From assembly GCF_037975245.1 (NCBI RefSeq), contig NC_092575.1, forward strand, positions 28,667,341 to 28,731,340: a stretch of 64,000 nucleotides of DNA. Direction: 5' to 3'. Numbering within the stretch: the stretch's first letter is position 1; the number at the start of each line of letters is the position of its first letter. The translations under genes and the position numbers were made by a program. The notes beneath the pieces were generated by a model, which was given only the letters and a program-made list of their open reading frames with translations, was not told the origin of the DNA and made no database searches. This stretch comes from Apostichopus japonicus. Its lineage: Eukaryota; Echinodermata; Holothuroidea; Aspidochirotida; Stichopodidae. Shown here piece by piece: positions 21,113 through 58,116 of this stretch.

Positions 21113-21260
21113 TTATACGATATTTGTTTTGTTACCTCGGAAGGGGCACTGGGAAGCCATTATTTTCAGTAAATAATTATGCGATATTTTGTATTGTTAC
21201 CATGGGAAGGTACTGGGAAGCCATTATTGTCAGTTAATATTTATACGATATTTGTATTGT
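21085..21260 (+). repeat. Tandem repeat spanning the HNMT-like stop codon
   Basis: The last codons and the stop (GGGAAGCCATTATTGTCAGT plus AAATAATTATACGATATT) recur three times with a period of about 62-68 bp in copy A, and twice in copy B (44,884-44,990). Each unit contains its own TAA. Confidence 0.7.
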
Positions 21261-22811: not shown

Positions 22812-23530
22812 ATATCGTCATCAGCTTTACATTAACTATAACTAATTAACTAAGAAATGAAACGAATCTTGGTCGGTCTTGATAACAGCGTACAGAAATG
22901 AATAAATATTTGGATATTCATAGATACATGATCACATTAAACATCTACATTATGCTAATTTGATATTCAGATTCAAGAAGAGATACTGTCACTAAGCTAT
23001 ATATATATATATGCACACCGTAAGACTAGAAACAAACATGGAACAATTATTTGGCTTTATGCAAATTGTTGAAAAGTACGTAAACACTAGAATTAATTGA
23101 GTAATCCAAAATAAACAACTTCGGCTATATATACTAAAACAGTGCCATTCCTTTGTGATAACCTTCACACCCGCAGAGAAACGAGTTAAACGAACTCCCA
23201 AAAGTTACTTTGGCTAATACAATGACCACATTTTAACATCTACCTCCTTTCGGTTGATTCTTTAAAATCCTTGCGACCAACTGACTGATACAATCCATTT
23301 TGATCTTTGATCACCGTAAGCACTTCCACATGATTTTCGATAACTTTGACATATTTTGGTATCTCAGTAGGTAGTAATATATCGTATAACTGGTATACCC
23401 CAACCGTGAGCATATAATGCGGTGGTAACGTAATACGACGTTACCACAAAAATATATCAATTGTTTTTCACAAATGTCCTTAACCTGTTCTAGCTCATGT
23501 GAAGTACGCTGGTGCTCTGTCATTAATAAC
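22812..23530. other. Non-coding spacer between convergent genes (copy A)
   Basis: Matches copy B 45,545-46,265. It contains a short TA run near 23,000 and no ORF of interest. It separates the 3' end of the HNMT-like gene from the minisatellite. Confidence 0.55.
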
Positions 23531-23534
23531 ACGA

Positions 23535-25575: not shown

Positions 25576-25967
25576 CACTTCCTGCGATATGCAGGTTGAG
25601 TACATTCGCGCTTAATATTTAAATACATGTAGCGGTGCAGTCTCTCCGCCTCTACAAAGGGGGATGACAATGTAACAGTATTCTAAAGTATGATATTAGT
25701 AAGTTTTCAATCCAGTGGCAAATTCTCTTCCCACCCCACTCCCTCAGCCCATTTGCCTTAACATCATGTGTCCCTCGATGTAAATGATAAGTGCAAGTAA
25801 CATTGATAACATTGAAATAGACAAGCATTTGTTAAAGAATCACAAAAATGCAGTTCCCAATCAACTTTAGATTGCTGACTCGGTTACTTCATGCTAATGA
25901 AGGTAAGAACATCGAATCGAATATTTCAACATAATACAGTAAAAGGGAAAGTTTCACAACAAATGAA
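25576..25967. other. 3' flank of the large receptor gene, copy A
   Basis: About 390 bp between the stop codon (25,968, - strand) and the minisatellite, conserved in copy B (47,054-47,441). It probably holds the 3' UTR. I did not find an unambiguous AATAAA on the - strand here. Confidence 0.4.
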
Positions 25968-26225
25968 CTACAGCTTAGTAGTAATGGTAGATGTATTGTT
26001 TAGTTCCTTCTTTGCTTTTGTTCCCTCTTTGGTGGGAACAGCATTTTTCTGACTACAGCGAGGTATTCTGAGAATCTTCCTAACACTCGGCGTCAAGAGA
26101 AAGGTTGCAAGCATCAGCACACCTTGCAGGGAATTAACAATTACAGAAACCCAAAGAAGGTACACGTTGTTGAAGATACCTTGTAGGAGAGACAATATCC
26201 ACGGTAAACCTAGCAGAATCGTCAG
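25968..26225 (-). CDS. Exon 6 (TM6, TM7, cytoplasmic tail), copy A
   Basis: Acceptor ATCTTTTCAG/CTGACGATT at 26,225, phase 0. It begins LTILLGLPWILSLLQG (TM6), a short loop, then VYLLWVSVIVNSLQGVLML (TM7), and a tail of about 35 residues rich in Lys and Thr ending ...TITTKL. Eighty-five codons plus TAG. Confidence 0.82.
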   Translation of the reverse strand: MTILLGLPWILSLLQGIFNNVYLLWVSVIVNSLQGVLMLATFLLTPSVRKILRIPRCSQKNAVPTKEGTKAKKELNNTSTITTKL

Positions 26226-29200
26226 CTGAAAAGATACAATTGAGCAAATAAATAAAAAAGAAAACTAGCCCTCTAGTCAGATCAATTTTGCCGTGCATCG
26301 CACCATCACTTGTGCGAGAGCTTACCCATGGCTTCCCTTTTTTGGTAATACAGTTGGTTCCTTTCGAAATAGTGTTGTAGTTTTACGTAGGCCCGGGAAT
26401 ACATGAACGTTACATTCCGTGCATTGTATGAAGAAAATGAATCACCAAATGACATTGCTATTTTTGGATCAAAATTTAGAAGCATGAATGTGTGTATGCG
26501 ATTAATGAAAAGTATAAAATATTTCCTAGAGACAAGGACAGACTGTAATTGGCGTCTTTTTCTAAGCAGTATTCTACCAAAACAACAAAACTGTACGTAT
26601 AGATACAAGCCTTTGTTTTAGTTCCTCTTAAACAAACAATAACTGATATGAACAGTATGAGCTGATGTTTCAATACATTGATATGTGTGTGTTTTTCTGC
26701 ATTTCTTTGATCTCGGTATTTTTTAAACAGAATTATGTATAAACTAATGTACGTCTTAAATTTAAGTTCCCTTTTCTTGACGTTATTGAATTGTTGACAT
26801 TGAACATGAACGTGAAAGCATGTAAGTCCACGAGAGGTGGCGAGAGGGGGGCACAGTGTATACAATCGGAAATTTCCTACACGTCTGAGTCTACAACTGT
26901 AATTATAAACCACGGTGTATAATTTGATGTACATTTGATTTAAATGTTGCTCGGCCAATACTGCAGTTGGTCTCAAAGAGCTAATCGGTCTCAGAAACGA
27001 CCTATTTTTCACCCTCTTGAGAGGCGATATTTCCAGGTTGCCAGGATGATAGAGGCTTTATTTGCCAAGTTTGCGGAAATTACCGGTCAAATCGGATAGT
27101 AATTGACCATTAACCAATGGCCTGATAGGATTTAAAACTGATTTAACATCTGGAAAAAGACTACCAGACAGGGCTGGGACATGTGCCGAAAAAACATCCA
27201 CTTAAGCCGGCCTTCTAAATAATTGATAAAATATTCTCCCGATACTAAAAAGAAATTCAAAGGAAATTCTGTCCTTGACAGAGAAGACCCTGAAAGTCAT
27301 ATCCGGGTGTCTAGAGTTGCCCAATATAATACAAAACAAACTGTGCACTCATGCCCTAACAATGGACTTTCCTTTGGGCTCCCATAATACTGCTGCACCA
27401 CTCCGACGCAACCTCCCTTAGTCCCAGACAACAATTAAGTATTTAACTTACTTTCACAATGATGAACAATTCATCTGTTTGTTGCTTGTTTGAACTTTTG
27501 ACTTTCCGTCCAGCTTTTAAAGAGCGGTGAACTGAAAGAATAGTCACTGTCAATAGTACCGAAGTCGTCAGGAGGAACAATACGTTCGGAATCGTTACAA
27601 ACACCACCAAAGGCCACCCACTACGAAGATAACACACCAACGTCGAAGATGTGTAAGGAGTGTAGGAACTATTGGTAAATTGTAACACTATTGCCACTGT
27701 AACGAAAGGTGTTGGAGCACCGAATGCGACTAAGGCAAGTAGTAAGAGAGATTCACTCTTATCTTCGTGCACTCGTAGAGATTGAGTAAACGTTTTGGTA
27801 ATCCTGAATGCAATTACAGTCATCCAACTGAAGGCAGAAAGCCACACAAAGTGGGACACTGTAGCGAGAACAAAGCATACGTCAGATATTTCATTCAGAA
27901 GTGGATTAATCTTAAAGAAAGCTTGTCCGAGAAGTAGGCATGCTGTAAATACAACAATACATTTGCCTTGAATATTCATCAATGATGGATGACAAATGTG
28001 AATGGCTATCATACAAAGCAATGCAACAATCGACAAACCACCGAAGACGGTCTCAATGTGATACAGTATCAATTCGACTTCAGTCACGATATTTTCCGAG
28101 CAAGCCCAAACTCCATCTGGTGAGATTTCAATCTCTATACGTCGAAGTAGAGAAGAAGATTGAACGTGTTTGACCACAGGTTCGTTCCAGTCCGTCACAC
28201 TCAATCCATCGTATGGTATGAATACGCGATTCTCATTGCATTGTAGCTCTCTGTCAAGTAAAGACAAACATTCGTTTGGAATTATGCTGTAAGTCATGAC
28301 GTGGGTTTCTTTGTCATAGTTGTAGGTAGCATATATGACTTTGCATAAAGGATTTTTCATACGATTGGTAGAGGTAGCTGTGGAAGTACAATCGATGAAA
28401 TGTGTACAGTTCCTGTCTGCAATAAAAGGTAGCTCTGTAGGTTCGAACACAAACCGCCACTTGTCAGTGAAGCACGTTGGGTCTTCGACAGGTGTGTTTA
28501 AGAGCAAAGGTCTTAGGCTACTTTCGATTGCTATAACTATGAGTATGTTTTCACCAAACACTTCCATTTCTATGGAAGAAAATGTTTTGGTCAAAGAGAA
28601 ATGAAACGGTTCTACATCGTCCAACGCATTGAATACCTTACTGTAGTTACGAGTTATATTTAAGACACATGAAAGCACGATCTCTTCTGATATATTCCGT
28701 GACTGATCATCCGGAGAACCCGATGTCACCGGTTCTGCGATACAACTTGAAAATGATGGGCACGTCAATCTTCTACATCGTTTAGAAAAAATATCATATA
28801 TTTCGTTCGGTGGGCACACGAGGGCTAGTCTTTCTTGAACTTCTGTGTTACTGCCGAAATCAAATAGAAGAGATATGGATAAGATAGTGTCCGTGAAACC
28901 ACATAGGCCATTGCACTTAAGGTATTTATTGTCTGTGCACTCAGTCGCACATGCACTTCTGCAAAAGTTCGGAAAGTCAAAGTGCGACTGCGAGTTTTCA
29001 CAAATTAAACATAGAGAGTTCTTATAGATACCGTCTGATGGAAACACTGGAGCATTGTAGCTTGCACAGACATCACCAGCTTCGTTACTTTCAGGTATTT
29101 TATCAGAACACTTAGAATATTCTTTCAATATGCAAGGTCGCGGATTTGAAAGTTTACTCGGATAATAAAAGTAGTAGTTTCCCGTCAGAATACCGGGTAA

Positions 29201-32200
29201 TACTGTACCAAGGTAAGGATCATAGAATGCTCTGGTTCTATCATACTCTGCCGATATTTCCCACGGAACGGCTTCGTTAAGTTCTACGCCATGACAGACC
29301 GCACAAAAAACATTTTTGTACGAAATATTTCGTGGATCGTAAACCGGCATGATTCGCATAGGGTCAAGTTCAATACTCTTGTCTTCACAGAGTTGCCTCA
29401 ATTCTTCGTCCGTCCACCTTGGAGAACAATAGGAAACCAGGTAGAAAGTTTGGTCAAAATTAACCGCCTCACATTTGTAAAATTTAAAGTCTAAATGTTC
29501 ATTGATTGCTAAAGGTTCAAGATAATTGTCCTCCACATCGCGGGGTTTGTCGAATACGTCATCATCAAAACAGAAGTCTTCAAAGTCGTGACAACAATCT
29601 CGATAAAAATAACAAAGTTTATCACAAGAACAAGAGTCAAGACTTCGGATCTCACCACATCGTGCTGAGCAAGAGTGACGAGCACCGCAGGTACGCACAT
29701 CTTTACCAGCGACTGTTATGTCTGGAATAAACACACCAACATTTAATACATGCATAATAAACATATTATTGCACACATTTTTCTTTTCAAGACGCCATAA
29801 AAGGTTCACTGCTGCATCGGTAACGTTTTTGTCATTGGAATCATGAAAACGGTGTTACCATTGTACATAAACCATTGATTGCTTCGAAAGTAAGAAAGGG
29901 AGTAATACTCTAAAATGGAAGAGCGTTCTGACAAAAAGGGATTATTGAAACATTGGATATCTAACTGAGTTTAAAAATAACGAATTGATGAGCTTCCATC
30001 TCACTATAAAACTTGGTTTCCTTTTCTCTCTTGTTCATTTTAAAAGTTCTATTCAAATTTGTTGAATTTCGGTATAAACAAAGTAATTTTAACTAATGAC
30101 ATGCGAATGCCACGTTTAGGCAATACAGGCTCGCACCTAAAATTGATCTCTATATAAATACAAGCTTCTCATACTAGTTATGTCCTGAAATTACAGATCA
30201 AAGGACATTTGATAGCATGCGGCGATTGTCTGTGGCTGTGGTATGCTTCTTTAAATATCATTGGCGTACTTATCTCTATCCAAGTTCACAATGCTCATTA
30301 AGTTTGGAAGTAAGCCTAACGTTTCGGTGATTTTAGTTACTCTTACCTTCTCCACAGTCCAGTAACGCAACTTCATCATCAAAACACCCATTCTCCAAAT
30401 CTCTCTCACACTGAAGAAAATGTTCGTCAGTATGAGAGCAATAAACCGCCTTAATCAAAGTAAGATCGGTACGTCTATTTTCTACCCCAGTAGTTGCAGC
30501 TGACCAAGGGTAACCAAGGGTCCTACAAATACTATTACCATCTCGAAGATCCCAAGCCTCGGCGCAGATTCGCATCCAACCGGTAACGTAGCTAATACAA
30601 GATGGACGAATAAATAGCGGTTATGATGGATGGGGAGAAGCTGAGAGGAGAGTCAATGGACAGAGATGTTGAGAGAGATGGTAAGGAGTGAATTATCTTG
30701 GAGGAAAGAGAGAAGATTAAAGAGGGGTGGAGAGAAGTCGATGTGTAATCACATTATTGAAGGAATGAACTAGAGTATATCACAACCATATGTTGCTCTG
30801 TGCATGTATTTGAAAGATTCTTAGAAAATGACTCTCTGAAAAATTGCACTATATATATGGCATAATTTTGTTGTTTAGTAGAAAAAAGTTACCAGTAAAA
30901 TAATATTTACTGAAATTCAACATTTAGGAAGACTGGTGCATTAATTTATTACCTGCAGCGTATTTCTACAACACCGTTCCCAGGCAATGTTCCATTGATA
31001 AGTCTTACTTCAACATCATTTACTCCTAGAATGAAAGAAGAAACAAAAACCAGATCACATAAGTGGATCCGACATTGATCCTCGTTATGCTATTGTAAAC
31101 GACATAACAAATATATGCGGTAACAAAAGTGACCTGGTCGGATCCCAAGATGAAGCAGTTTAATGAAGCAGTACATTCACACTTCATAGCTTTCCAGGTT
31201 TATCATTTGAACGAGAGGGAATTATACAAACAGGATATAAGTATGGAACAATACAGCTAGATGCTATTCCTGCTTTACTTGTTATCTTTTTAAACAGAAT
31301 TCTATTCATGTTTTTAATCACTGCAACTAATTAACAAGACACTTAACTAGTCATGATTAATTCATCAATGCCTTCATTATACCCAGTCTGCTATTATTGG
31401 TTAACCATTCTGTATTGTTCTCATTACTGCTGAGTCAAATTGCCAGAATATCGTAATACGGCGGTTTTGATGTGTAGGTATATAAAATAGTCATGATAAT
31501 AGTTTTGTATTTGATGCGGTGTCCGTTGATATGTGTTAACATGTGATTACTACCCATGTAACGAACGTGTTTGACTGAATTATTTGAATCGGTGTTTTTA
31601 AATTGCCCTAATGGATATTTCTAGCATTTAACGCAAGGGTCGTCTAGCAGATTTGTACTTTAAACAGTAATCGCTAATTTCAAACAAAAAATGGATGAGG
31701 GATTTGAACAATTGGAATGGTTAATTCAATACAGACCTGCTGGAAATAATAGAAATCTGATCGCAAAATGTTGCTTTAATAAACAAGCATCCCCAGTGTT
31801 TGCATGGGTAAATCTACTGTACATTAATTCATGAACTGGTATAGGCCAAACTACAACTATAACTGTTATTCTGCCTACCTTCACTGCACACTAATCCAAG
31901 ATAGCCTTCTTCACAACTGATGTTACTGTTACGAGCGATGGTACAGTTATGAATACTACTGGTGGATGGCGGACAAAAAACTTCATCAATGACGTCCAGT
32001 GGATCTTGCGATATGTCAACGTCATTTATTATGCCTGAGTCAAACGACTGACAAACGTAGGGATATCCCAGACTGTTACATATTGCCACAGCTAGTCGGT
32101 AGTCCTTGTTGCCCGTACGACATACATGCAACCATCGATTGTCAACAAGAATCTGGAGCAGGCCGTCCTTATCACTGCCCCCATTTACCAGGCGAGCCTC

Positions 32201-33123
32201 TGCCAAGGAATAAACATTCCACATACATGTAAGCAAAAGAGAGATTCTTAAATAAACAGAGCTTGTTGACATAGAATGATATGACAGGCAGGGACGTAGC
32301 CAGGGGGCAGCAGGGGGGAGCGACCGCTCCCCCCTTTCAGTGTCGAAAAATGCTAAAAACTGTTGTTTTTTTAGCATGGTATTTTGTCAGTGCTCTTTTG
32401 ATCTTGAATACTCGTCAGCTCCGTTAACTCGATTATAATCGTAGTAACATTCAGGCCTATTGATTCACCTACTAACTTAGTTTGGCAGATGCAATTAGCT
32501 AAATTTTGCCTATAGCCTATAACAAGCCTACAGTTGGCCACTGCGTAATAAAATACATATCGCCTACCTAACCGCGATGGAGTGTCACGAACCGTATGCA
32601 CAACGACGCTGACAACGTTCGTTCTCATCCTTTTTATGATTCGTCCTAAGACGTTGCACGAACAACATGTTATGAAGCTAAGCTAGCAACAGTACGTGAT
32701 ACGCGCTTCCTATAAATAATTATTGCACTGCTAATACACTGCAATAATAATATTTGTTTTTAAGCCACTGCACATCTGGCTGTCTCACAAAATATGAAAG
32801 TTTATATTGTTCATCAGTTAAGTTCGTCAAATGTATTAAAGTCCAGACATTAGACAATAAACAAGAGCCATCCTACTGGAAAAATTGTAAAAGAGCAATA
32901 TGTTTGTCTTTCTGATATAATATGTAAAAGAACACGTAAAAGAATTCAAACAGGAAACAAAATCTGCTGATAATATGATACATGATAATGATGAAACTGG
33001 CAAAACATTGCACCAGATCGCATCTAAGGACACCCCTCCCCTTAGACCACTCCCCCATATCAATCACAAAATGTGCCCCCCCCTTTCAAATTCCTGGCTA
33101 CGTCGCTATGCTTAGGCATGGGT

Positions 33124-33166
<43 letters not shown>

Positions 33167-33250
33167 TATGTATATATATATATTACTGTGTAGAGTGCTC
33201 TATCAAAAGATTTGAGAGCAAATTAGATATATATAGATTAGATATATATA

Positions 33251-33288
<38 letters not shown>

Positions 33289-36200
33289 ATATCTAATTTG
33301 CTCTCAAATCTTTTGATAGAGCACTCTACACAGTAATTGCCGTGCACGGCAAGCAACGCGACGATGAATTCCTTTAACTTGGACTACTCCGGTAAGAACA
33401 TTCCTATTCTATCCAACAAGAAATATACCATAAGATTGCTAGAAAAAACGGAGGAACTAATAAAACGCATAAGCTGGAAAACACTCTTCTTCCTGAGCAA
33501 CAACGCTGTCCTTGATGCAACTAATGGTAAACAAGATGAATCCATACCTGAATACTATACGGGCTAAAATCTAAACGTTGAACACCCCAAATCCAAGAAA
33601 TGATAGAACTCTAGCGTGACCATTTGACCATAGTGAAAAACATCCAGTTTAAGAAAGTTGGCGATAAATTCCAATCTCTGCTCAAAGAAAAGGTAGCTGA
33701 GATCAACTAATCAGATAAATATTTGCGGAAGCTGCCAAAAGCAGAAACATGTACAAATTGAGCCACCCAGACTACGACAAGCTCCTCACTGAAAACATCA
33801 CCTAAAAGTATTTGCATACCAACCTCTAGACAACTAACGAAATAGATGCCGAATTCAACGACATATAGCAAGAAAGCTCAACGTTTCGTGTAGAATTAGC
33901 GAGACTCCGCGCAAACCTGCCTTCGGAACAATCAAAGACCACAAAGTAAAAATTCCATTCAAGAACGCAATGCAGATTAATAAATCCAACGAAGCCAGAA
34001 ATGGGACGCGTGAGCAAGGCAATCCTCGACCGTGTGAATAATGCTATACGCAATAAAACGCATATCAAGCAGTGAAGAAGCAGCGAATCGGTCCCAGAAT
34101 GGCTTTCTGGCCTTAGAGTGAAAGAAAAGCTAACATTCCTGCTCTTCGACCAAGTCGACTTCGACCCTTCAATTTCCGAAGAATTACTAACCAAGTGTAT
34201 AACATGGGCAAAAAAGATTACACCCATCCCGGACAAAGAGTTCGACACCATCATGCACTCAAGAAGATCTCTCCTATGTGACACCAGTAGCAAACCCTGG
34301 GCAAAGAAGGGCACCCAGAAGCAATTTGACGCACCATGCATGGGTGCATTCGACGGCGCCAAGATCTGTGAGCTCGTTGGACTGTTCGTACTCAGCGACC
34401 TCGAGAAAAGGCTAAATTGGGACAGCATAGGTTTATACCGGGACGATGGCTTGGCCGCTTTTAAACTTTTAACAAGATTATATCTTATCCAAAACAGAAA
34501 ATGTTGGATTGCTCAGTTGCTTTGACTGACCAATTGAACAATTTTCTGCAAAATGTTTAATTGACAACTTATCTTATCTCGTCAATTGAACGTTTTTTCT
34601 GCAAAATGTTTAATTGACAACTTATCATATCTCGTCAATTGGACATTTTTCTGCAAAACGTTGAACTGTTTGCTTCATTCCAAGTGAGCAATTGAAAAAT
34701 TTTCTGCAAAATGTTTAATTGACAACTTATCGTATCTCGTCAATTCAACATTCGTCTGCAAGATAATATCTTATCAAAATCAGAAAAATGTTGGATTGCG
34801 CAAATGCTTTAACTGAGCAATTGTCTAATATTTATATTTAAATCTACTTATATATATTAATATCGTTTTATTGTAATGTCGTTTATTGTTGATTTCTTGA
34901 ACGGTACCAAATGCATTGATGACTAATTTAAATAAAACATGTGTCCTAAACACATGTTTGTTGTTTGTCGTGTTTAGGACACATGTTTTATTTAAATTCG
35001 TCATCAATGCATTTGGTACCGTTCAATAAATATTCCTATATATATATATATATATTCCCTATATATATTCCCTATATATATTCCCTATATATATTCCCTA
35101 TATATATTCCCTATATATATTCCCTATATATATTCCCTATATATATTCCGTTATTGCGTCTTATTATGTGTCCTGCCAAATGTATTGAGATAATCTCCTG
35201 CAAATATGAAACGTCAAATCCAACAGTTTTTTAAATCATGTTCGAGTTGACAGGTTAATGAATCGCTCTTTTGCCCTCTCTCCTCTGTATATAGTACTTT
35301 ACGGCCTCTGGTGCACATGTGCTGCTTCTTTGCTGCTTGGCCTGAAGCTAACAACACAACAGTTGTTTATGGAACATGATACTTTAATGATATTACAATA
35401 AAATCAATTTAAATTTTGTTTTTCCTCAAATAGTGTTGCGATGATTTTCTTTTTAAATGTTGTTGTTACAAATTGTTGTTACAAAGAACATATATATGTC
35501 GTAACATCACCATACCAAGTATAAACTAAATCGGGCAAATCAATAGGGCATTCAATATGACATTGATCCCACTTGTGTTTGTTGAGATATCGTGGTTACA
35601 AGCTGTTTTTGACAATTTTCCATTAAGGCCCATCCACTCATGAATATTAATGAAGTAAAATTGTTGTTGCAAAGAACATGTACTTACTATGTAGTTACAT
35701 TACCATACCCAGTATGAACTAAATGAGACTTACAGTTGAACAGATACTAATATTTTCATAATTTAACGTAAAGACCCGTACAAGCATTAATGTGCATGAT
35801 AGCCCCATCATAAACAATAGGGATCATCTGCTGACCAGTATCAACATATATACCAAGTATGACATTGATGTAACTTGTGTTTGTTGAGATAATCGTGTTG
35901 AAAAGCTGGTTTTGAAGATTTCCCATTAAGCAACATCCACGCATGAATATTAATGTGGTGAACTTGTTGTTGCAAAGAACATGTACTTACTATATAGATA
36001 CATCACCATACTCAATATGAATTAAATTGGACTTAACGTTGAAGAGATATTGACATTTCCATATTTTAACGCTAAGCCCCGTCCACTCATTAATACCTAA
36101 GATAGCCGTACCAAAAACAATAGGGATCATCTAATGACCATGACCATGCATATATAAATACATACACGCATATATGCACACGCACACACACACACGCATA

Positions 36201-36614
36201 CACGCACCCTAACACGCATACACGCACACCCCAACTTGGCTGCGTAGGTTCCGATGGATGCCAAAGCATCGGAACGAAAAAGCACGGAAGAACGAAAGTC
36301 TTAGCTCCAATACCCCTCTCCCAAGATTTCCGCTCTCTCTCTCCATATTTCTCACTATATTTAACTCTGTAAGTATCTCTCTTTATTCTATGTTAGACTT
36401 TCATCAGCGATAATCTCAGATGTTGGTCTTATATACTGATTACTGATGCAACATATTATGATGGCAATGGGCAGATATCAATATATTATGAAGACTCACC
36501 TTCAATCTGTAGGTTAGAACTTTCTCCATTGTCCTCAGAACAGTTCGATCTATTAAACTTGGTGAAAAGAGTCAAGAGAACACAGACGTATCTAAATATT
36601 AAACGACCTGCCAT
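25968..36614 (-). CDS. SRCR-SRCR-SMB-7TM (Mth/secretin-like) receptor, copy A, gene model
   Basis: Six exons on -: 36,500-36,614; 31,879-32,199; 30,953-31,025; 30,347-30,591; 27,452-29,721; 25,968-26,225. All joins have GT/AG and matching phases (1,1,2,1,0), giving 3,282 bp, 1,093 aa. Order: signal peptide (1-25), SRCR domain 1 (about 39-145), SRCR domain 2 (about 147-251), somatomedin-B (about 269-302, eight cysteines), a long cysteine-containing ectodomain (303-800), then seven helices (TM1 about 805-835 to TM7 about 1,035-1,057). The core has class B marks: VNSLQG in TM7 and TILLGLPWI in TM6. No HLT/HLS proteolysis site is visible before TM1, so it is nearer to Methuselah-like than cleaved adhesion receptors. 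SRCR and SMB modules suggest binding of a protein or microbial ligand. Neighbours: convergent with the HNMT-like gene. The gene model is inferred; no transcript evidence. Confidence 0.8.
26226..27451 (-). other. Intron 5 of the large receptor, copy A
   Basis: 1.2 kb intron between TM5 and TM6. ORFs at 26,306-26,608 and 26,476-27,012 (-) carry no domain; their copy B counterparts are shortened and shifted, as expected for intron sequence. Confidence 0.6.
27452..29721 (-). CDS. Exon 5 (SMB domain, ectodomain, TM1-TM5), copy A
   Basis: A 2,270-bp exon. Acceptor GTTTATTCCAG/ACATAACA at 29,721; donor GTGAAA/GTAAGT at 27,452. It opens with DITVAGKDVRTCGARH, then the SMB signature: cysteines spaced C-x3-C...CxC-x3-C-x4-5-CC-x6-C, with the typical DCCHDF. 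About 500 residues of unrecognised ectodomain with many paired cysteines and N-glycosylation sites (NIS, NITRNYS, NCT) follow, then TM1-TM5. The frame stays open upstream to an ATG at 29,809, but that stretch crosses the polypyrimidine tract and acceptor, so I treat it as intron. Confidence 0.9.
30347..30591 (-). CDS. Exon 4 (second half of SRCR domain 2), copy A
   Basis: Acceptor TTGTATTAG/CTACG, donor GAAG/GTAAGA. Encodes YVTGWMRIC, then DLRDGNSICRTLGYPWS, then YCSHTDEHFLQCERD and VALLDCGE: the CRxLGY, and C...C...DC pattern of scavenger receptor cysteine-rich domains. One codon shorter than copy B (CAEAWDL here, CAGTSWDL there). Confidence 0.85.
30953..31025 (-). CDS. Exon 3 (start of SRCR domain 2), copy A
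   Basis: A 73-bp exon: acceptor TTTCATTCTAG/GAGTA, donor CTGCAG/GTAATA. Encodes VNDVEVRLINGTLPGNGVV plus EIRC, the classic VRLxNG opening of an SRCR domain. The phase-2 join to exon 4 restores ...EIRCSYVTGW. Confidence 0.82.
31879..32199 (-). CDS. Exon 2 (complete SRCR domain 1), copy A
   Basis: Acceptor TTTATTCCTTGGCAG/AGGCTCG, donor GAAG/GTAGGC; phase 1 at both ends, the usual state of shuffled SRCR modules. Encodes EARLVNGGSDKDGLLQILV, WLHVC, AICNSLGYPYVC, DEVFCPPSTSS, and GLVCSEG. An ORF extends upstream into a hydrophobic MSTSSVYLRISLLL stretch, but the phase-matched join to exon 1 makes that intron sequence more likely. Confidence 0.82.
32289..33109. mobile_element. TIR DNA element in receptor intron 1, copy A
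   Basis: Left end CAGGGACGTAGCCAGGGGG and right end TTCCTGGCTACGTCGCTATG are inverted copies with a mismatch near the tip. G-runs and C-runs lie just inside both ends, as in the elements near 1.6 and 7.7 kb. The same insertion is in copy B (53,788-54,612), so it predates the duplication. No clear target duplication. Confidence 0.65.
33182..33336. repeat. Perfect long hairpin around a TA repeat, copy A
   Basis: Arms of about 49 bp: TTACTGTGTAGAGTGCTCTA... at 33,182-33,230 and its exact reverse complement ending TAGAGCACTCTACACAGTAA at 33,288-33,336, separated by TA-rich sequence. A further TA run precedes it (33,127-33,180). Copy B has the same arms (54,678-54,720 and 54,827-54,868) with a longer pure TA loop. 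Confidence 0.88.
33337..34558 (+). pseudogene. Degraded Penelope-like reverse transcriptase gene, copy A
   Basis: Pieces in several frames follow the order of a retroelement reverse transcriptase: FNLDYSGKNIPILSNKKY near the N-terminus, KNIQFKKVGDKFQSLL, then FLLFDQVDFDPSISEELL (palm motif A region) and GAFDGAKICELVGLF followed by GLYRDDGLAAFK, where YRDD is the catalytic Y-x-D-D box. Several stops and shifts lie between 33,567 and 34,118, and the end after motif C is missing. The motif style resembles invertebrate Penelope-like elements, which I state from memory; the class is an inference. A one-base loss after GLAAFK shifts the frame relative to copy B. Confidence 0.6.
34505..34800. repeat. 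Tandem repeat after the reverse transcriptase remnant, copy A
   Basis: Four imperfect copies of a unit of about 60 bp with TTTCTGCAAAATGTTTAATT and GACAACTTATC, TCTCGTCAATT. A flanking pair, AATGTTGGATTGC, is at 34,499 and 34,787. Confidence 0.7.
34899..35024. repeat. 55-bp-arm inverted repeat (hairpin), copy A
   Basis: Arms at 34,899-34,953 and 34,970-35,024 are reverse complements with one mismatch; each holds GAACGGTACCAAATGCATTG and ACATGTGTCCTAAACAC. The loop is 16 bases. Just 3' lies a run of TTCCCTATATATA units (35,030-35,150), nine in A and fewer in B. Confidence 0.9.
35455..36140. repeat. Tandem repeat, unit about 300 bp, copy A
   Basis: TTGTTGTT(A/G)CAAAGAACAT recurs at about 35,472, 35,663 and 35,963, each followed by ACCATAC(C/T)(C/A)A(G/A)TAT; units 2 and 3 also share CAATAGGGATCATCT. 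Followed by a CA/CG-rich microsatellite (36,150-36,235) and a 9-bp-stem hairpin GTTCCGATG...CATCGGAAC (36,247-36,275). Confidence 0.7.
36500..36614 (-). CDS. Exon 1 (signal peptide) of the large receptor, copy A
   Basis: ATG at 36,614, donor GAAG/GTGAGT at 36,500, phase 1. Encodes MAGRLIFRYVCVLLTLFTKF, a basic start and hydrophobic core, then a short acidic and serine-rich linker ending LQIE. The join to exon 2 gives ...NLQIE-EARLVNG, matching both phase and SRCR domain start. It is the only signal-peptide exon I found upstream; the 4.3-kb intron makes this the least certain join of the model. Confidence 0.65.
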
Positions 36615-38907
36615 TTGAAATCCAATACCTTCAGAAGAATCAAATCTAGCTCAAACAGCTGACAGTCGAAGTATCATCAAAGTATATCCAGAATATTCCT
36701 TTATATGCTCTTTTTCAACCCAATCCTGCAAATCATCTGAAAAACAAATATATCATTTGTAAGATTTCTCGTTCCAATAACATGGAAAGTGCATTAGCCA
36801 AGGCGGAACTAATACCAACGTCTTTAATAGTGCGACATGGTTACAAGATAATTACGAAACAATTCTTTATGCGTGAAAGCTTGTAATTCAGCAGAAATAA
36901 AGAAAAACAAAAAAAGTGTTATTATGCAAAGAGCCTTTCTTTATATTAAAATAAATATGAAATAAGGAAAACACGTTTTAAGATAATAATACAAATGGAA
37001 GAGGTAGGATAATCATCACAGCGTCGTTGCCTGTCACGTTAACATGTTATTAAGATAACACAAGATGAATAGTTAAATAATGCCTAGGCTAACATCACAT
37101 GTCATTAGGAAATTGAAAGTACAATCAACCAACGGAATAAACACATAGCAATGCTTTGCAAATTTAAAATACTGAACTTCCACTGTGTTTTCCCCGTCGA
37201 ACTGACCCAACTAGACACCGGAGGAGGAAGGGTCCTATAGCACTGTAAAGGGACGGTTTACGATAGTAAAGCTTAGCCTTCGAGAGTTTTCTGGGATTTT
37301 TAGGGGGTGTGGAAGGGAGGATTAACAAAATGAAACAAAGTATAGACCATAGCGCGAAATAGCGAAGACATTTTTGCTAATTTGTTTCGAATTAATGGCG
37401 AATTTTCGATCACTTCATGACCATGTCGTCACTCCTTGTTGAAGATGTAATGGACATACTTTTCTACCAATATTTCGTGACTTGGAAGATGTCAGCTGCT
37501 AAAATATTAAAATTCACTTCCAAGTGAACTTGAATAAATGAAATTTGAATTCAATCTAATCTGTAAGATGTTTTGCCCTGCATACTTTCATGCCCATTCC
37601 TAATAGAACACGTATAGCGTTTCCATTAGATTATTACATTTAGAAGTATGAATTAATGGATCATTTTGAAGAATAAAGGTAACAATGTAAGATGTTTTCT
37701 TTCTTTCTGAATGAGTACGTCTCGTGACTGTAAAGGTCTCAAAACCTTTTACAGATTGGTTAAGGCCATTCTGTGGTTGATTTATTTGACGTTTGTTTTG
37801 TTTGGTTCTTTGTCTTTTGGTATATTTTTGTGTTTTCCTCTTTTTTAAGAACAGCGAAAGTTAGGTATGGTTAGCTGTCTGTAATGTGCTGGTTCCTTCA
37901 ATTTGTAAGCCTCTGTTCAAAGGCGATTGAGTTAGGTAACTATAACCTCAGTATGTTGACGATGCACACATAAAATGGAAGCGTAGACATTGAATGCCTA
38001 AAAATGAACTTCGCCATTGTAGCTGGTGAGTGTTAATACTAGGCATGGTTCTGCAACACATGTGTTCATTTCTCCACTATAGTAGTGTTACCAGATGGAG
38101 CGATTATATGGCCTTGTTTTGAACACGCGCTTCTCATTTATAAAATGATCCAATTTTCAGGTGAAAGCGTTGTCTGAATGAGTTCCTCCTCCCCGTACTC
38201 ACATCCCTTGCACTGACTATGTCGATATTTCCCTGTTGTGGACATAAAAATGGGGTACAAATCATATCTGTGTTAAGGTATATAGTGTGATATTCTTACA
38301 TCTTACATCTTTAGAAAGATAACAATTACCACCGATCGTGAAACATTGATACCATTTTATTGAGATCTTCATTAGGATCTTGCAATGATATATTGCAAAC
38401 CAGTAGTACTCGGTATATCCAATATACACTTCTGAAATGCAATAAATTTGTCCTGGTACATAGGTAATGAGGTTTTCCGTTTATATACAAATATATTTCG
38501 CATAATGTATGCAACTACTGTGGCTGTATTTAAATTTTTTATAGCCCTGCCTCATATTTTTTACATTATTCACTAGCCAATAACTTTCTTTACCTAATTA
38601 GGCATAACCTTCTTATCCTTAAAAGAATTTGTTCAATTAATGCAAATGTAATGAAAAACATTGTTTCTTTCATCATCTAATGAGAGGAAACTGCCATGAA
38701 ATAACAAAATTACTCTGTACACTGCTTTATACTTCTGAATCGTTAAGTGCCGAAAGAGCTACCAAGTTCACTGATATGTAATAATCACTGCATATTATTC
38801 ATGAACAGTGATATTCAATTATCGTGACGTTAAAATATCTTATTTCTCCATAATTTTGTAGATGCTACAGTTCGATGTTGCGGACATCATTTGTTATCCT
38901 TCAATAC
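36615..38907. other. Upstream region of the large receptor, copy A
   Basis: 2.3 kb, matched in copy B (58,117-60,403). It probably contains the receptor promoter. No ORF with a domain, no TIR or LTR. An ORF of 62 codons at 38,326-38,514 (-) has no parallel reading frame in copy B. Confidence 0.5.
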
Positions 38908-47441: not shown

Positions 47442-47699
47442 CTACAGCTTAGTAGTAATGGTAGATGTATTGTTTAGTTCCTTCTTTGCTTTTGTTCCCT
47501 CTTTGGTGGGAACAGCATCTTTCTGGATACAGCGAGGTATTCTGAGAATCTTCCTAACACTCGGCGTCAAGAGAAAGGTTGCAAGCATCAGCACACCTTG
47601 CAGGGAATTAACAATTACAGAAACCCAAAGAAGGTACACGTTGTTGAAGATACCTTGTAGGAGAGACAATATCCACGGTAAACCTAGCAGAATCGTCAG
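47442..47699 (-). CDS. Exon 6 (TM6, TM7, tail), copy B
   Basis: Acceptor TTTTCAG/CTGACGATT at 47,699, phase 0. Differs from copy A only in the tail as far as I can see (CIQKDAVP against CSQKNAVP). Confidence 0.82.
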   Translation of the reverse strand: MTILLGLPWILSLLQGIFNNVYLLWVSVIVNSLQGVLMLATFLLTPSVRKILRIPRCIQKDAVPTKEGTKAKKELNNTSTITTKL

Positions 47700-50600
47700 C
47701 TGAAAAGATACAATTGAGCAAATAAATAAAAAAGAAAACTAGCCCTCTAGTCAGATCAATTTTGCCGTGCATCGCACCATCACTTGTGCGAGAGCTTACT
47801 CACGGCTTCCCTTTTTTGGTAATACAGTCGGTTCCTTTCGAAATAGTGTTGTAGTTTTACGTAGGCCACGGGAATACATGAACGTTACATTCCGTGCATT
47901 GTGTGAAGAAAATGAATCACCAAGTGGGAATGACATTGCCCATTTTGGATCAAAATTTAGAAGCATGAATGTGTATGCGATTAATGAACAGTATAAAATA
48001 TTTCCTAGAGACAAGGACAGACTGTAATTGGCGTCCTTTTCTTAGCAGTATTCTACCAAAACAACAAAACTGTACGTATAGATACAAGCCTTTGTTTTAG
48101 TTCCTCTTAAACAAACAATAACTGATATGAACAGTATGAGCTGATGCTTCAATACTATAATGTGTGTGTTTTTCTGCATTTCTTTGATCTCGCTATTTTT
48201 TAAACAGAATTATGTATAAAGTAATGTCTGTCTTAAGTTTAAGTTCCCTTTTCTTGACGTTATTGAATTGCTGACATTGAACATGAACGTGAAAGCATGT
48301 AAGTCGACGAGAGGTGGCGAGAGAGGGGGGGGGGGGGGGCACAGTGTATACAACCGGAAATTTCCTACAAGTCTGAGTCAACAACTGTAATTATAAAACA
48401 CGGTGTATAATTTGATGTACATTTGATTTAAATGTTGCTCGGCCAATACTGCAGTTGGTCTCAAAGAGCTAGTTGGTCTCAGAAACGACCTATTTTTCAC
48501 CCTCTTGAGAGGCGATATTTCCAGGTTGCCAGGATGATAGTGGCTTTATTTGCCAAGTTTTCGGAATTTACAGGTCAAATCGGATAGTAATTGACCATTA
48601 ACCAATGGCCTGATTAGGTTTATAACCTTTAACATCTGGAAAAAGACTACCAGACAGGGCTTGGACATGTGCCGAAAAAAACATCCACTTAAGCCGGCCT
48701 TCTAAATAATTGATAAAATATTCTCCCGATACTAAAATACTAAAAAGAAATTCAAATAAAATTCTGTCCTTGACAGAGAAGACCCAGAAAGTAGTATCCG
48801 GGTGTCTAGAGTTGGCCAATATAATACAAAACAAACTGTGCACTCATGCCCTAAACAATGGACTTTTCTTTGGGTTCCCATAATGCTGCTGCACCACTCC
48901 GACGCAACCTCCCTTAGTCCCAGACAGCAACTAAGTATTTAACTTACCTTCACAATGATGAACAATTCATCTGTTTGTTGCTTGTTTGAACTTTTGATTT
49001 TCCGTCCAGCTTTAAAAGAGCGGTGAACTGAAAGAATAGTCGCTGTCAATAGTACCGAAGTCGTCAGGAGGAACAATACGTTCGGAATCGTTACAAACAC
49101 CACCGAAGGCCACCCACTACGTATAAAACACACCAACGTCGAAGATGTGTAAGGAGTGTAGGAACTATTGGTCAATTGTAACACGATTGCCACTGTAACG
49201 AAAGGTGTTGGAGCACCGAATGCGACTAAGGCAAGTAGTAAGAGAGACTCACTCTTATCTTCGTGCACTCGTAGAGATTGAGTAAACGTTTTGGTAATCC
49301 TGAATGCAATTACAGTCATCCAACTGAAGGCAGAAAGCCACACAAAGTGGGACACTGTAGCGAAAACAAAGCATACGTCAGATATTTCATTCAGAAGTGG
49401 ATTAATCTTAAAGAAAACTTGTCCGAGAAGTAGGCAGGCTGTAAATACAACAACACATTTGCCTTGAATATTCATCAATTTTGGATGACAAATGTGAATG
49501 GCTATCATACAAAGCAAAGCAACAATCGACAAACCACCGAAGACGGTCTCAATGTGATACAGTATCAATTCGACTTCAGTCACGATATTCTCCGAGCAAG
49601 CCCAAACTCCATCTGGTGAGATTTCAATCTCTATACGTCGAAGTAGAGAAGAAGATTGAACGTGTTTGACCACAGGTTCATTCCAGTCCGTCACACTCAA
49701 TCCATCGTATGGTATGAATACGCGATTCTCATTGCATTGTAGCTCTCTGTCAAGTAAAGACAAACATTCGTTTGGAATTATGCTGTTAGTCATGACGTGG
49801 GTTTCTTTGTCATAGTTGTAGGTAGCATATATGACTTTGCATAAAGGATTTTCCATATGATTGGTAGAGGTAGCTGTGGAAGTACAATCGATGAAATGTG
49901 TACAGTTCCTGTCTGCAATAAAAGGTAGCTCTGTAGGTTCGAACACAAACCGCCACTTGTCAGTGAAGCACGTTGGGTCTTCGACAGGTGTGTTTAAGAG
50001 CAAAGGTCTTAGGCTACTTTCGATTGCTATAACTATGAGTATGTTTTCACCAAACACTTCCATTTCTATGGAAGAAAATGTTTTGGTCAAAGAGAAATGA
50101 AACGGTTCTACATCGTCCAACGCATTGAATACCTTACTGTAGTTACGAGTTATATTTAAGACACATGAAAGCACGATCTCTTCTGATATATTCTGTGACT
50201 GATCATCCGGAGAACCCGATGTCACCGGTTCTGCGATACAACTTGAAAATGATGGGCACGTCAATCTTCTACATCGTTTAGAAAAAATATCATATATTTC
50301 GTTCGGTGGGCACACGAGGGCTAGTCTTTCTTGAACTTCTGTGTTACTGCCGAAATCAAATAGAAGAGATATGGATAAGATAGTGTCCGTGAAACCACAT
50401 AGGCCATTGCACTTAAGGTATTTATTGCCTGTGCACTCAGTCGTACATCTACGTCTGCAAAAGTTCGGAAAGTCAAAGTGCGACTGCGAGTTTTCACAAA
50501 TTAAACATAGAGAGTTCTTATAGATACCGTCTGATGGAAACACTGGAGCATTGTAGCTTGCACAGACATCACCAGCTTCGTTACTTTCAGGTATTTTATC

Positions 50601-53600
50601 AGAACACTTAGAATATTCTTTCAATATGCAAGGTCGCGGATTTAAAAGTTTACTCGGATTATAAAAGTAGTAGTTTCCCGTCAGAATACCGGGTAATACT
50701 GTACCAAGGTAAGGATCATAGAATGCTCTGGTTCTATCATACTCTGCCGATATTTCCCACGGAACGGCTTCGTTAAGTTCTACGCCATGACAGACCGCAC
50801 AAAAAACATTTTTGTACGAAATATTTCGTGGATCGTAAACCGGCATGATTCGCATAGGGTCAAGTTCAATACTCTTGTCTTCACAGAGTTGCCTCAATTC
50901 TTCGTCCGTCCACCTTGGAGAACAATAGGAAACCAGGTAGAAAGTTTGGTCAAAATTAACCGCCTCACATTTGTAAAATTGAAAGTCTAAATGTTCATTG
51001 ATTGCTAAAGGTTCAAGATAATTGTCCTCCACATCGCGGGGTTTGTCGAATACGTCATCATCAAAACAGAAGTCTTCAAAGTCGTGACAACAATCTCGAT
51101 AAAAATAACAAAGTTTATCACAAGAACAAGAGTCAAGACTTCGGATCTCACCACATCGTGCTGAGCAAGAGTGACGAGCACCGCAGGTACGCACATCTTT
51201 ACCAGCGACTGTTATGTCTGGAATAAACACACCAACATTTAATACATGCATAATAAACATATTATTGCACACATTTTTCTTTTCAAGACGCCATAAAAGG
51301 TTCACTGCTGCATCGGTAACGTTTTTGTCATTGGAATCATGAAAACGGTGTTACCATTGTACATGAACCATTAATTGCTTCGAAAGTAAGAAAGGGAGTA
51401 ATACTCTAAAATGGAAGAGCGTTCTGACAAAAAGGGATTATTGAAACATTGGATATCTAACTGAGTTTAAAAATAACGAATTGATGAGCTTCCATCTCAC
51501 TATAAAACTTGGTTTCCTTTTCTCTCTTGTTCATTTTAAAAGTTCTATTCAAATTTGTTGAATTTCGGAATAAACAAAGTAATTTTAACTAATGACATGC
51601 GAATGCCACGTTTAGGCAATACAGGCTCGCACCTAAAATTGATCTCTATATAAATACAAGCTTCTCATACTAGTTATGTCCTGAAATTACAGATCAAAGG
51701 ACATTTGACAGCATGCGGCGATTGTCTGTGGCTGTGGTATGCTTCTTTAAATATCATTGGCGTACTTATCTCTATCCAAGTTCACAATGCTCATACAGTT
51801 TGGAAGTAAGCCTAACGTTTCGGTGATTTTAGTTACTCTTACCTTCTCCACAGTCCAGTAACGCAACTTCATCATCAAAACACCCATTCTCAAAATCTCT
51901 CTCACACTGAAGAAAATGTTCGTCAGTATGAGAGCAATAAACCGCCTTAATCAAAGTAAGATCGGTACGTCTATTTTCTACCCCAGTAGTTGCAGCTGAC
52001 CAAGGGTAACCAAGGGTCCTACAAATACTATTACCATCTCGAAGATCCCAACTTGTTCCGGCGCAGATTCGCATCCAACCGGTAACGTAGCTAATACAAG
52101 ATGGACGAATAAATAGCGGTTATGATGGATTGGGAGAAGCTGAGAGGAGAGGCAATGGACAGAGATGTTGAGAGAGATGGTGAGGAGTGAATTCTCATGG
52201 AGGAAAGAGAGAAGATTAAAGAGGGGTGGAGAGAAGTCGATGTGTAATCACATTATTGAAGGAATGAACTAGAGTATATCACAACAATATGTTGCTCTGT
52301 GCATGTATTTGAAAGATTCTTAGAAAATGACTCTCTGAAAAATTGCACTATATATATGGCATAATTTTGTTGCTTAGTAGAAAAAAGTTACCAGTAAAAT
52401 AATATTTACTGAAATTCAACATTTAGGAAGACTGGTGCATTAATTTATTACCTGCAGCGTATTTCTACAACACCGTTCCCAGGCAATGTTCCATTGACAA
52501 GTCTAACTTCAACATCATTTACTCCTAGAATGAAAGAAGAAACAAAAACCAGATAACATAAGTGGATCCGACATTGATCCTCGTTATGCTATTGTGAACG
52601 ACATAACAAAGATATTCGGTAACAAAAGTGACCTGGTCGGATCCCAAGATGAAGCAGTTTAATGAAGCAGTACATTCACACTTCATAGCTTTTCCAGGTT
52701 TATCATTTGAACGAGAGGGAGTATACAAACAGGATAGAAGTATGGAACAATACAGCTAGATGCTATTTCTGCTTTACTTGTTATCTTTTTAAACAGAATT
52801 CTATTCATGTTTTTAATCACTGCAACTAATTAACAAGACACTTAACTAGTCATGATTAATTCATCAATGCCTTCATTATACCCAGACTGTTATTATTGGT
52901 TAACCATTCTGTATTGTTCTCATTACTGCTGAGTCAAATGGCCAGAATATCGTAATACGGCGGTTTTGATGTGTAGGTAAATAAAATAGTCATGATAATA
53001 GTTTTGAATTTGATGCGGTGTCCGTTGATATGTGTTAACATATGATTACTACCCATGTAACGAACGTGTTTGACTGAATTATTTGAATCGGTGTTTTTAA
53101 ATTGCCCTAATGGATATTTCTAGCATTTAACGCAAGGATCGTCTAGCAGATTTTTACTTTAAACAGTAATCGCTAATTTCAAACAAAAAATGGATGAGGG
53201 ATTTGAACAATTGGAATGGTTAATTCAATACAGACCTGCTGGAAATAATAGAAATCTGATCGCAAAATGTTGCTTTAATAAACAAGCATCCCCAGTGCTT
53301 GCATGGGTAAATCTACTGTACATTAATTCATGAACTGGTATAGGCCAAACTACAACTATAACTGTTATTCTGCCTACCTTCACTGCACACTAATCCAAGA
53401 TAGCCTTCTTCACAACTGATGTTACTGTTACGAGCGATGGTACAGTTATGAATACTACTGGTGGATGGCGGACAAAAAACTTCATCAATGACGTCCAGTG
53501 GATCTTGCGATATGTCAACGTCATTTATTATGCCTGAGTCAAACGACTGACAAACGTAGGGATATCCCAGACTGTTACATATTGCCACAGCTAGTTGGTA

Positions 53601-54750
53601 GTCCTTGTTGCCCGTACGACATACATGCAACCATCGATTGTCAACAAGAATCTGGAGCAGGCCGTCCTTATCACTGCCCCCATTTACCAGGCGAGCCTCT
53701 GCCAAGGAATAAACATTCCACATACATGTAAGCAAAAGAGAGATTCTTAAATAAACAGAGCTTGTTGACGTAGAATGATATGACAGGCAGGGACGTAGCC
53801 AGGGGGCAGCAGGGGGGAGCGACCGCTCCCCCCTTTCAGTGTCGAAAAATGCTAAAAACTGTTGTTTTTTTAGCATGGTATTTTGTCAGTGCTCTTTTGA
53901 TCTTGAATACTCGTCAGCTCCGTTAACTCGATTATAATCGTAGTAACATTCAGGCCTATTGATTCAGCTACTAACTTAGTTTGGCAGATGCAATTAGCTA
54001 AATTTTGCCTATAGCCTATAACAAGCCTACAGTTGGCCACTGCGTAATAAAATACATATCGGCTACCTAACCGCGATGGAGTGTCACGAACCGTATGCAC
54101 AACGACGCTGACAACGTTCGTTCTCATCCTTTTTATGATTCGTCCTAAGACGTTGCACGAACAGCATGTTATGAAGCTAAGCTAGCAACAGTAGGTGATA
54201 CGCGCTTCCTATAAATAATTATTGCACTGCTAATACACTGCAATAATAATATTTGTTTTTAAGCCACTGCACATCTGGCTGTCTCACAAAATATGAAAGT
54301 TTATATTGTTCATCAGTTAAGTTCGTCAAATGTATTAAAGTCCAGACATTAGACAATAAACAAGAGCCATCCTACTGGAAAAATTGTAAAAGAGCAATAT
54401 GTTTGTCTTTCTGATATAATATGTAAAAGAACACGTAAAAGAATTCAAACAGGAAACAAAATCTGCTGATAATATGATACATGATAATGATGAAACTGGC
54501 AAAACATTGCACCAGATCGCATCTAAGGACACCCCTCCCCTTAGACCACTCCCCCATATCAATCACAAAATGTGCCCCCCCCCCTTTCAAATTCCTGGCT
54601 ACGTCGCTATGCTTAGGCATGGGTATACATGGGTATATATATATATATACATATATATGTATATATATATATATATATTACTGTGTAGAGTGCTCTATCA
54701 AAAGATTTGAGAGCAAATTAGATATATATAGATTAGATATATATATATAT

Positions 54751-57800: not shown

Positions 57801-58116
57801 GTCTTAGCTCCAATACCCCTCTCCCAAGATTTCCGCTCTCTCTCTCCATATTTCTCACTATATTTAACTCTGTAATTATCTCTCTTTATTCTGTGTTAGA
57901 CTTTCATCAGCGATATTCACAGATGAAGTCTTATATACTGATTACTTATGCAACATATTATGATGGCAATGGGCAGATATCAATATATTATGAAGACTCA
58001 CCTTCAATCTGTAGGTTAGAACTTTCTCCATTGTCCTCAGAACACTTCGATCTATTAAACTTGGTGAAAAGAGTCAAGAGAACACAGACGTATCTAAATA
58101 TTAAACGACCTGCCAT
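47442..58116 (-). CDS. SRCR-SRCR-SMB-7TM (Mth/secretin-like) receptor, copy B, gene model
   Basis: Same six exons as copy A: 58,002-58,116; 53,378-53,698; 52,452-52,524; 51,843-52,090; 48,948-51,217; 47,442-47,699. All splice sites and phases hold; total 3,285 bp, 1,094 aa (exon 4 has one extra codon). Domain order is identical. About 22 of 788 residues differ from copy A in the stretch ending at TM5, half of them in TM1-TM5 and loops (for example HPKLMN for HPSLMN, FIRSGWPS for YLRSGWPL) and a cluster near FCRRRCTTECTGN. Both copies therefore look functional. Nothing in the coding sequence explains different roles. Confidence 0.8.
47700..48947 (-). other. Intron 5 of the large receptor, copy B
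   Basis: 1.25 kb. A G-run (48,327-48,340) is longer than in copy A, and there is a small duplicated ACTAAAAT near 48,735. No coding sequence. Confidence 0.6.
48948..51217 (-). CDS. Exon 5 (SMB domain, ectodomain, TM1-TM5), copy B
   Basis: Exactly the same length as in copy A (2,270 bp), no gap. Donor GTGAAG/GTAAGT is a slightly better consensus than copy A's GTGAAA/GTAAGT. All SMB cysteines are kept. Confidence 0.9.
51843..52090 (-). CDS. Exon 4 (second half of SRCR domain 2), copy B
   Basis: 248 bp. Reads GWMRICAGTSWDLRDG: one codon more than copy A, at a loop between the first SRCR cysteine and the DLRDG helix. In frame, so harmless. Confidence 0.84.
52452..52524 (-). CDS. Exon 3 (start of SRCR domain 2), copy B
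   Basis: 73 bp with the same acceptor and donor as copy A; encodes VNDVEVRLVNGTLPGNGVV, where copy A has VRLING. Confidence 0.8.
53378..53698 (-). CDS. Exon 2 (SRCR domain 1), copy B
   Basis: 321 bp, phase 1 at both ends. One visible residue change from copy A (KDYQLAV for KDYRLAV). Confidence 0.82.
53788..54612. mobile_element. TIR DNA element in receptor intron 1, copy B
   Basis: Same insertion as 32,289-33,109, with CAGGGACGTAGCCAGGGGG at the left and CTGGCTACGTCGCTATG at the right; inherited through the duplication. Confidence 0.65.
54678..54868. repeat. Long hairpin around an expanded TA repeat, copy B
   Basis: Arms as in copy A (33,182-33,336), but the loop is almost pure TA for about 100 bp against about 55 in copy A, showing microsatellite growth since duplication. 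Confidence 0.88.
54869..56093 (+). pseudogene. Degraded Penelope-like reverse transcriptase gene, copy B
   Basis: Same remnant as in copy A. The last part stays open a little longer (GLYRDDGLAAFKTFNKIISY, then PKQKMLDCSVALTDQL) because copy B keeps an A that copy A lost. The internal stops between 55,099 and 55,650 are shared, so the gene was dead before duplication. Confidence 0.6.
56094..56340. repeat. Tandem repeat after the reverse transcriptase remnant, copy B
   Basis: Same roughly 60-bp unit (TTTCTGCAAAATGTTTAATT, GACAACTTATC) as at 34,505-34,800. Confidence 0.65.
56432..56557. repeat. 55-bp-arm inverted repeat (hairpin), copy B
   Basis: Counterpart of 34,899-35,024 with the same single arm mismatch. 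Followed by a shorter run of TTCCCTATATATA units (56,563-56,655). Confidence 0.88.
56960..57660. repeat. Tandem repeat, unit about 300 bp, copy B
   Basis: Same three anchors as in copy A (TTGTTGTTGCAAAGAACATG), with scattered substitutions. Confidence 0.68.
58002..58116 (-). CDS. Exon 1 (signal peptide) of the large receptor, copy B
   Basis: ATG at 58,116 and donor GAAG/GTGAGT at 58,002. One residue differs from copy A (NRSKCS for NRSNCS), just after the hydrophobic core. Conservation of frame and donor in both copies supports a coding exon. Confidence 0.65.

Follow-up and report, generated by a model that had tools for sequence, protein, structure and literature searches.

Class-B seven-helix receptors with a somatomedin-B (SMB) domain are known outside the arthropods, where Methuselah-like (Mth-like) proteins of Nematostella (XP_001628572), amphioxus (XP_002608881) and the acorn worm (XP_006821924) carry one (PMC4768249). 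The same source counts Echinodermata among the phyla with candidate Mth homologs and reports an expansion in the sea urchin; the 24 homologs that it accepts with high confidence outside insects come from arthropods, molluscs, hemichordates and cnidarians, with no echinoderm among them, and it describes the Methuselah_N ectodomain as restricted to the arthropod members. Methuselah-like receptors have been counted in two sea cucumbers (7 and 4; PMC7042368). SRCR domains, in turn, occur on adhesion GPCRs: the sponge receptors Aq712029 and Aq715659 carry SRCR repeats, with some sponge members having no GPS (PMC4302439), and both SMB and SRCR are among the adhesion GPCR domains of amphioxus (PMC2246102). 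Some echinoderms have greatly enlarged sets of SRCR genes (357 in the purple sea urchin), and in the starfish Acanthaster planci 7tm_2 ranks among the five domains that most often accompany SRCR in these genes (PMC10855680, Table 1).

Here we describe a receptor gene, copy A, of the sea cucumber Apostichopus japonicus, which lies in a 64,000-nucleotide stretch of DNA (C15:28667341-28731340), hereafter the window. An echinoderm origin is supported by COX1 on contig C35: translated with table 9, it aligns with mammalian COX1 over the full length, and all 9 of its AAA codons stand at Asn positions, in keeping with mitochondrial code 9, which echinoderms share with flatworms. Like the SMB-bearing Mth/Mthl-like GPCRs, copy A combines Somatomedin_B with a class-B seven-helix (7TM) core and has no Methuselah_N; unlike copy A, those receptors are presented with no mention of SRCR in the accessible portion of PMC4768249. 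As in the SRCR adhesion GPCRs of sponge and amphioxus, SRCR stands N-terminal to 7tm_2, but adhesion GPCRs are marked by GAIN/GPS, to neither of which copy A has a match, and the corresponding portions of PMC4302439 and PMC2246102 do not describe SRCR-SRCR-SMB on one protein. At the level of partner domains, the A. planci genes resemble copy A in joining SRCR and 7tm_2 in an echinoderm (PMC10855680). The order SRCR-SRCR-SMB-7TM was not found in the main text of the open-access literature searched, and is absent from the accessible portions of PMC6208332, PMC8242945, PMC13228809, PMC11959729, PMC7042368, PMC9759900 and PMC10374174. An earlier note on this DNA had called the combination unfamiliar from described families; this stands for the exact order, whereas SRCR with 7tm_2 and SMB with an Mth-like 7TM core are each already in print (PMC10855680, PMC4302439, PMC2246102, PMC4768249).

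Gene model and domain content

Copy A consists of six minus-strand exons (window 25968-36614) that join into a reading frame of 1,093 aa, with GT-AG borders at all five introns and exon-end phases of 1, 1, 2, 1 and 0 that are consistent across the joins. This agrees with the earlier note, which had joined six exons in matching phase to the same length. Its features are as follows.

Exon 1, copy A: 36500..36614, minus strand; ATG and signal-peptide-like segment, ending in phase 1; the ATG is also in copy B
Intron 1, copy A: 32200..36499, minus strand; 4,300 bp, rich in tandem repeats, containing the alternative ATG at 32272
Exon 2, copy A: 31879..32199, minus strand; SRCR domain 1 on a single phase 1-1 exon; PF00530, 37.5 bits
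Exon 3, copy A: 30953..31025, minus strand; N-terminal part of SRCR domain 2; phase 1 in, phase 2 out
Exon 4, copy A: 30347..30591, minus strand; remainder of SRCR domain 2; phase 2 in, phase 1 out; exons 3 and 4 joined, PF00530, 49.6 bits
Exon 5, copy A: 27452..29721, minus strand; somatomedin-B, ectodomain of about 500 aa, TM1-TM5
Somatomedin-B domain, copy A: 29570..29674, minus strand; residues 268-302; PF01033, 26.0 bits in the whole protein, 34.2 alone
Exon 6, copy A: 25968..26225, minus strand; TM6, TM7, short tail, stop

A second intact gene, copy B, absent from the earlier note though inside the same window, lies about 21.5 kb from copy A (58116-47442, minus strand); it encodes 1,094 aa, and five of its five introns are GT-AG.

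Exon 1, copy B: 58002..58116, minus strand
Exon 2, copy B: 53378..53698, minus strand; SRCR1
Exon 3, copy B: 52452..52524, minus strand; N-terminal part of SRCR2
Exon 4, copy B: 51843..52090, minus strand; remainder of SRCR2; net gain of 3 bases over copy A, in frame
Exon 5, copy B: 48948..51217, minus strand; SMB, ectodomain, TM1-5
Exon 6, copy B: 47442..47699, minus strand; TM6-7, tail

The domain order SRCR-SRCR-SMB-ectodomain-7TM, as originally proposed for copy A, was borne out by Pfam, with two SRCR domains, Somatomedin_B and 7tm_2 all above the curated cut-offs. SRCR reached 73.8 bits over two stretches of the whole protein, and SRCR1 and SRCR2 taken alone each exceeded the cut-off of 26.1; with at least one such domain, the product belongs to the SRCR superfamily. 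Somatomedin_B exceeded its cut-off of 23.1 in the whole protein as well as alone. The match to 7tm_2 (PF00002; 41.7 bits, residues 804-1045, cut-off 20.6) makes the protein a class B GPCR, and hydropathy gave 12 windows above threshold, which we grouped into seven helices. The N-terminus, of some 800 residues with SRCR, SRCR and SMB, is of the long, multi-domain kind found in adhesion GPCRs. However, copy A had no Pfam match at E≤1 to GAIN with GPS, which defines that family, to Methuselah_N (PF06652), the mark of Methuselah/Mthl receptors, or to HRM, the mark of the secretin hormone receptors; nor were GPS or GAIN found at this threshold in the SMB-7TM frames of three relatives (L011, L018 and L017). 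The claim that no autoproteolysis site is visible is thus upheld, and a diverged, uncleaved GAIN-like fold is compatible with the data.

Between SMB and the helices, residues 306-805 had no Pfam match at E≤10, a search of the ectodomain against PDB returned chance-level matches (best E 0.82), and an AlphaFold2 model of SMB and ectodomain built from both copies was unusable (mean pLDDT 29). When the 7TM core was compared with solved structures, all 19 matches at E≤1 were adhesion GPCRs, headed by ADGRG2 (E=9.4e-9). The core had previously been described as 'Methuselah/secretin-like', which holds at the level of class B, although the solved 7TM cores that it matched were all of the adhesion type. 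Among viral and prokaryote contigs no relative of exon 5 was found.

Since SRCR2 is complete only with exons 3 and 4, and 7tm_2 only with exons 5 and 6, two of the five joins (3/4 and 5/6) are supported by domains, and joins 1/2, 2/3 and 4/5 are spanned by no Pfam domain. Splicing and location at the cell surface are predictions from this model. We consider with good confidence that copy A encodes, as one gene, a putative surface class-B (adhesion/Mth-like) GPCR consisting of signal peptide, SRCR, SRCR, SMB, a cysteine-rich ectodomain some 500 aa long, and 7TM.

The least sure part of the model is exon 1 as the true start. An in-frame ATG at 32272 in copy A would open a second signal peptide directly before SRCR1, and the first exon might instead be this upstream extension of exon 2 (MSTSS...YSLA), with exon 1 unused and a protein of 1,079 aa. 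The extension is open and hydrophobic, and by the usual rule for signal-peptide cleavage its final SLA resembles a cleavage site; yet copy B reads ACG in place of this ATG, whereas both copies retain exon 1 together with its start codon and a consensus donor. We therefore prefer exon 1, without regarding it as proven, and judge a start at 32272 improbable. The mature protein would be nearly identical whichever start is used.

SRCR exons and the SMB-7TM family

Copy A belongs to a family of SMB-7TM genes, marked by one large exon that encodes SMB, a cysteine-rich ectodomain and TM1-5. When exon 5 was used to query the 671.6-Mb assembly (35 contigs), at least 68 matches at E≤0.001 were obtained, which merged into at least 41 places, copies A and B included, when matches on the same strand within 5 kb were joined. 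In Pfam, both SMB and 7tm_2 were above cut-off in L011 and L018; in L017 7tm_2 was above and SMB below (13.1 bits). We then scanned 15 of the 39 places outside the window with home-made SRCR profiles, covering at least about 4 kb upstream of each. Four had SRCR exons immediately 5' of the SMB exon and on the same strand (C17:30.066, C14:4.29, C2:28.77 and C17:36.76 Mb), and one (C1:15.209 Mb) had a single SRCR-like exon below cut-off (23.8 bits). Among the remaining 24 places, no SRCR was seen at those for which up to 1.5 kb around a match was covered, which says little.

The four SRCR-bearing relatives hold seven SRCR2 domains. Six were scored in Pfam, a set to which the second SRCR2 of C2 does not belong, and five exceeded 26.1 (49.6, 33.9, 32.1, 31.3 and 30.8 bits), with the second SRCR2 of C17:30 below the cut-off (20.1 bits). 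The relatives' SRCR1 is fainter: the four fragments scored in Pfam all fell below cut-off (23.3, 20.1, 16.6 and 15.0 bits), and with home-made profiles the halves gave 10-17 bits, at E up to 0.23. An extra cysteine ('EIRC', Cys169 of copy A) is present in five of six aligned SRCR2 domains. Searched against the genome, SRCR1 had no close relative beyond copies A and B and then matched domains elsewhere at 33% identity, and the SRCR2 of C17:30 Mb found C14 and C2 at 41-42%, followed by unrelated SRCR clusters from 37% down.

These relatives bear on whether receptor and SRCR exons form one gene at all. Two neighbouring genes would give a secreted two-SRCR protein from exons 1-4, with a stop in intron 4, and an SMB-7TM receptor that begins at exon 5 and has its own, weak signal peptide. 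Indeed, read-through of the exon-4 donor meets a stop within a few codons, an in-frame Met immediately ahead of exon 5 is followed by a mildly hydrophobic stretch, and at 10 of the 15 scanned places no SRCR was found nearby (C1:15.185, C1:6.169, C1:6.187, C17:35.885, C20:22.25, C11:24.93, C20:30.574, C20:17.308, C20:30.557 and C1:15.160 Mb). Against this, intron 4 is only 625 bp long, has good splice signals and matches in phase, and the SRCR2-SMB neighbourhood recurs, strand included and with phase-1 sites available, in four relatives whose compared frames share only 21-25% identity with copy A across most of exon 5. Two separate genes are therefore very unlikely in our view. An argument from polyadenylation signals was dropped: intron 4 has no AATAAA, which is uninformative because the 968 bases after the stop have none either.

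A single gene that includes the SRCR exons, the reading we prefer, also accommodates the junctions of the relatives. Candidate phase-1 acceptors and donors border all seven SRCR2 exons of the four relatives, and candidate phase-1 acceptors precede all seven SMB exons read, other AG/GT sites being present in both cases too. The relatives' SRCR1 appears to be split; for most pieces the inner candidate junctions are in phase 2 and the outer ones in phase 1. It speaks against the single gene that intron positions within SRCR differ, SRCR1 being whole and SRCR2 split in copies A and B and the reverse holding in the relatives.

In C17:30, C14 and C2 the first SMB-ectodomain frame is 355-375 aa long and ends at a phase-1 donor (CTG|GTAAGT or AAA|GTAAGT, three of three); another SRCR set and then the SMB-7TM exon follow, and no 7TM match is listed between the two cassettes. 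The loci at C17:30.07, C14:4.29 and C2:28.77 Mb therefore seem, as judged from their exon order, to be one gene each, in which the SRCR-SRCR-SMB-ectodomain cassette is present twice before one 7TM core (loci grouped as doubled-cassette relatives: L011, L012, L013, L015, L019, L023, L049-L052, L054 and L055). The cassette is single in copies A and B and in C17:36.76. The N-terminal modules have phase-1 junctions at their borders; the architecture therefore probably arose when entire modules were shuffled or duplicated, and so, probably, did its doubling in three relatives.

A tree built from 22 family frames united the six SRCR-bearing genes (A and B included) and two genes at C1:15 Mb in one group with 91/94 support. 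The tree covers 22 of the 41 places, has an arbitrary root and long branches, and supports the eight-gene group below the 95 bootstrap mark; one group member, C1:15.185, has no SRCR within about 5.5 kb.

Constraint on the SRCR exons was assessed between the duplicates C14 and C2. In five pieces of SRCR exons, a count that leaves aside the pair's first SRCR1a exon, dN/dS is 0.34 (13.5 synonymous against 16.5 non-synonymous changes, binomial P 0.002-0.007), and these pieces are free of gaps in a region with 4,308 gapped columns of 14,999. The SMB/7TM exon pieces of the same pair had 39 synonymous and 86 non-synonymous changes (dN/dS 0.60, P 0.006); here the SMB-7TM piece contains 27 gapped letters. 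Neither set fits neutrality, so that constraint on the SRCR exons of this pair is at least about equal to that on its receptor exons.

A proposed route from recognition to signalling

The domain content suggests how such a receptor may work. The SRCR pair and SMB would contact an extracellular protein, a glycan or a microbial or matrix ligand, a ligand class that we infer; the cysteine-rich, uncleaved ectodomain would relay binding to the 7TM core; and the core may signal through G proteins without GAIN/GPS autoproteolysis, coupling being likewise a prediction. Copies A and B form part of a small group within the larger SMB-7TM family of the A. japonicus genome. As a whole, the scheme that leads from ligand binding by SRCR and SMB through an uncleaved ectodomain to G proteins is put forward tentatively as the likeliest one, with slightly less than even confidence. 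SRCR domains often serve in immunity, so that an immune role is plausible, although this role, like one in matrix sensing, is read from domain names.

A bolder reading, which we hold to be doubtful, is that these genes constitute a distinct echinoderm family of pattern-recognition GPCRs, in which a repeatable phase-1 SRCR-SRCR-SMB-ectodomain cassette would couple scavenger-type recognition to G-protein signalling without autoproteolysis. If there is such a family, its union of SRCR pair and seven-helix core in one protein would offer a direct, testable path from recognition to cell signalling, as well as a clean example of module shuffling and doubling in receptor evolution. Should the domains serve adhesion or matrix contact only, the receptor would still be a useful addition to the class-B repertoire.

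The duplicated segment

Copies A and B are 96.2% identical over the 14,174 columns of their main aligned block. Mismatches range from 0.4 to 5.8% per 1-kb step, tandem repeat excluded, and alleles of marine invertebrates can diverge by such amounts, which would fit two haplotypes of one gene assembled in tandem. However, the window contains no N and lies inside a single contig of 29.3 Mb, and the neighbours are rearranged, the rhodopsin-type receptor between the copies having an inverted second copy beyond copy B. The rearranged neighbourhood favours two genes, and we regard a single gene present as two haplotypes as rather unlikely. Apart from the exon-4 indel, 10 synonymous and 30 non-synonymous changes separate the coding sequences of copies A and B; with dN/dS at 0.86, indistinguishable from neutral (P=0.40), this comparison alone proves no constraint.

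The segment of about 20 kb stands in tandem at 18986-38907 and 38891-60404, with inverted pieces at its borders; the larger aligned pieces are 93-96% identical outside tandem repeats, and one repeat-containing piece is 87% identical. The rhodopsin-type GPCR between copies A and B is a single frame at 41974-43101 on the minus strand (Pfam 7tm_1, 111.7 bits), and the inverted copy of its sequence, 94% identical, is at 60595-62010. Also between the receptor copies are reverse-transcriptase-like fragments below Pfam cut-offs (39683-41821, minus strand). Rfam and tRNA scans of the whole window were empty. A pair of plus-strand frames at 20745-21176 and 44541-44909, which had no Pfam match at E≤1, may resemble histamine N-methyltransferase. 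Directly downstream of both receptor copies are tandem arrays of a 34-bp unit, at 23603-25579 (61 copies) and 46328-47059, of unequal lengths.
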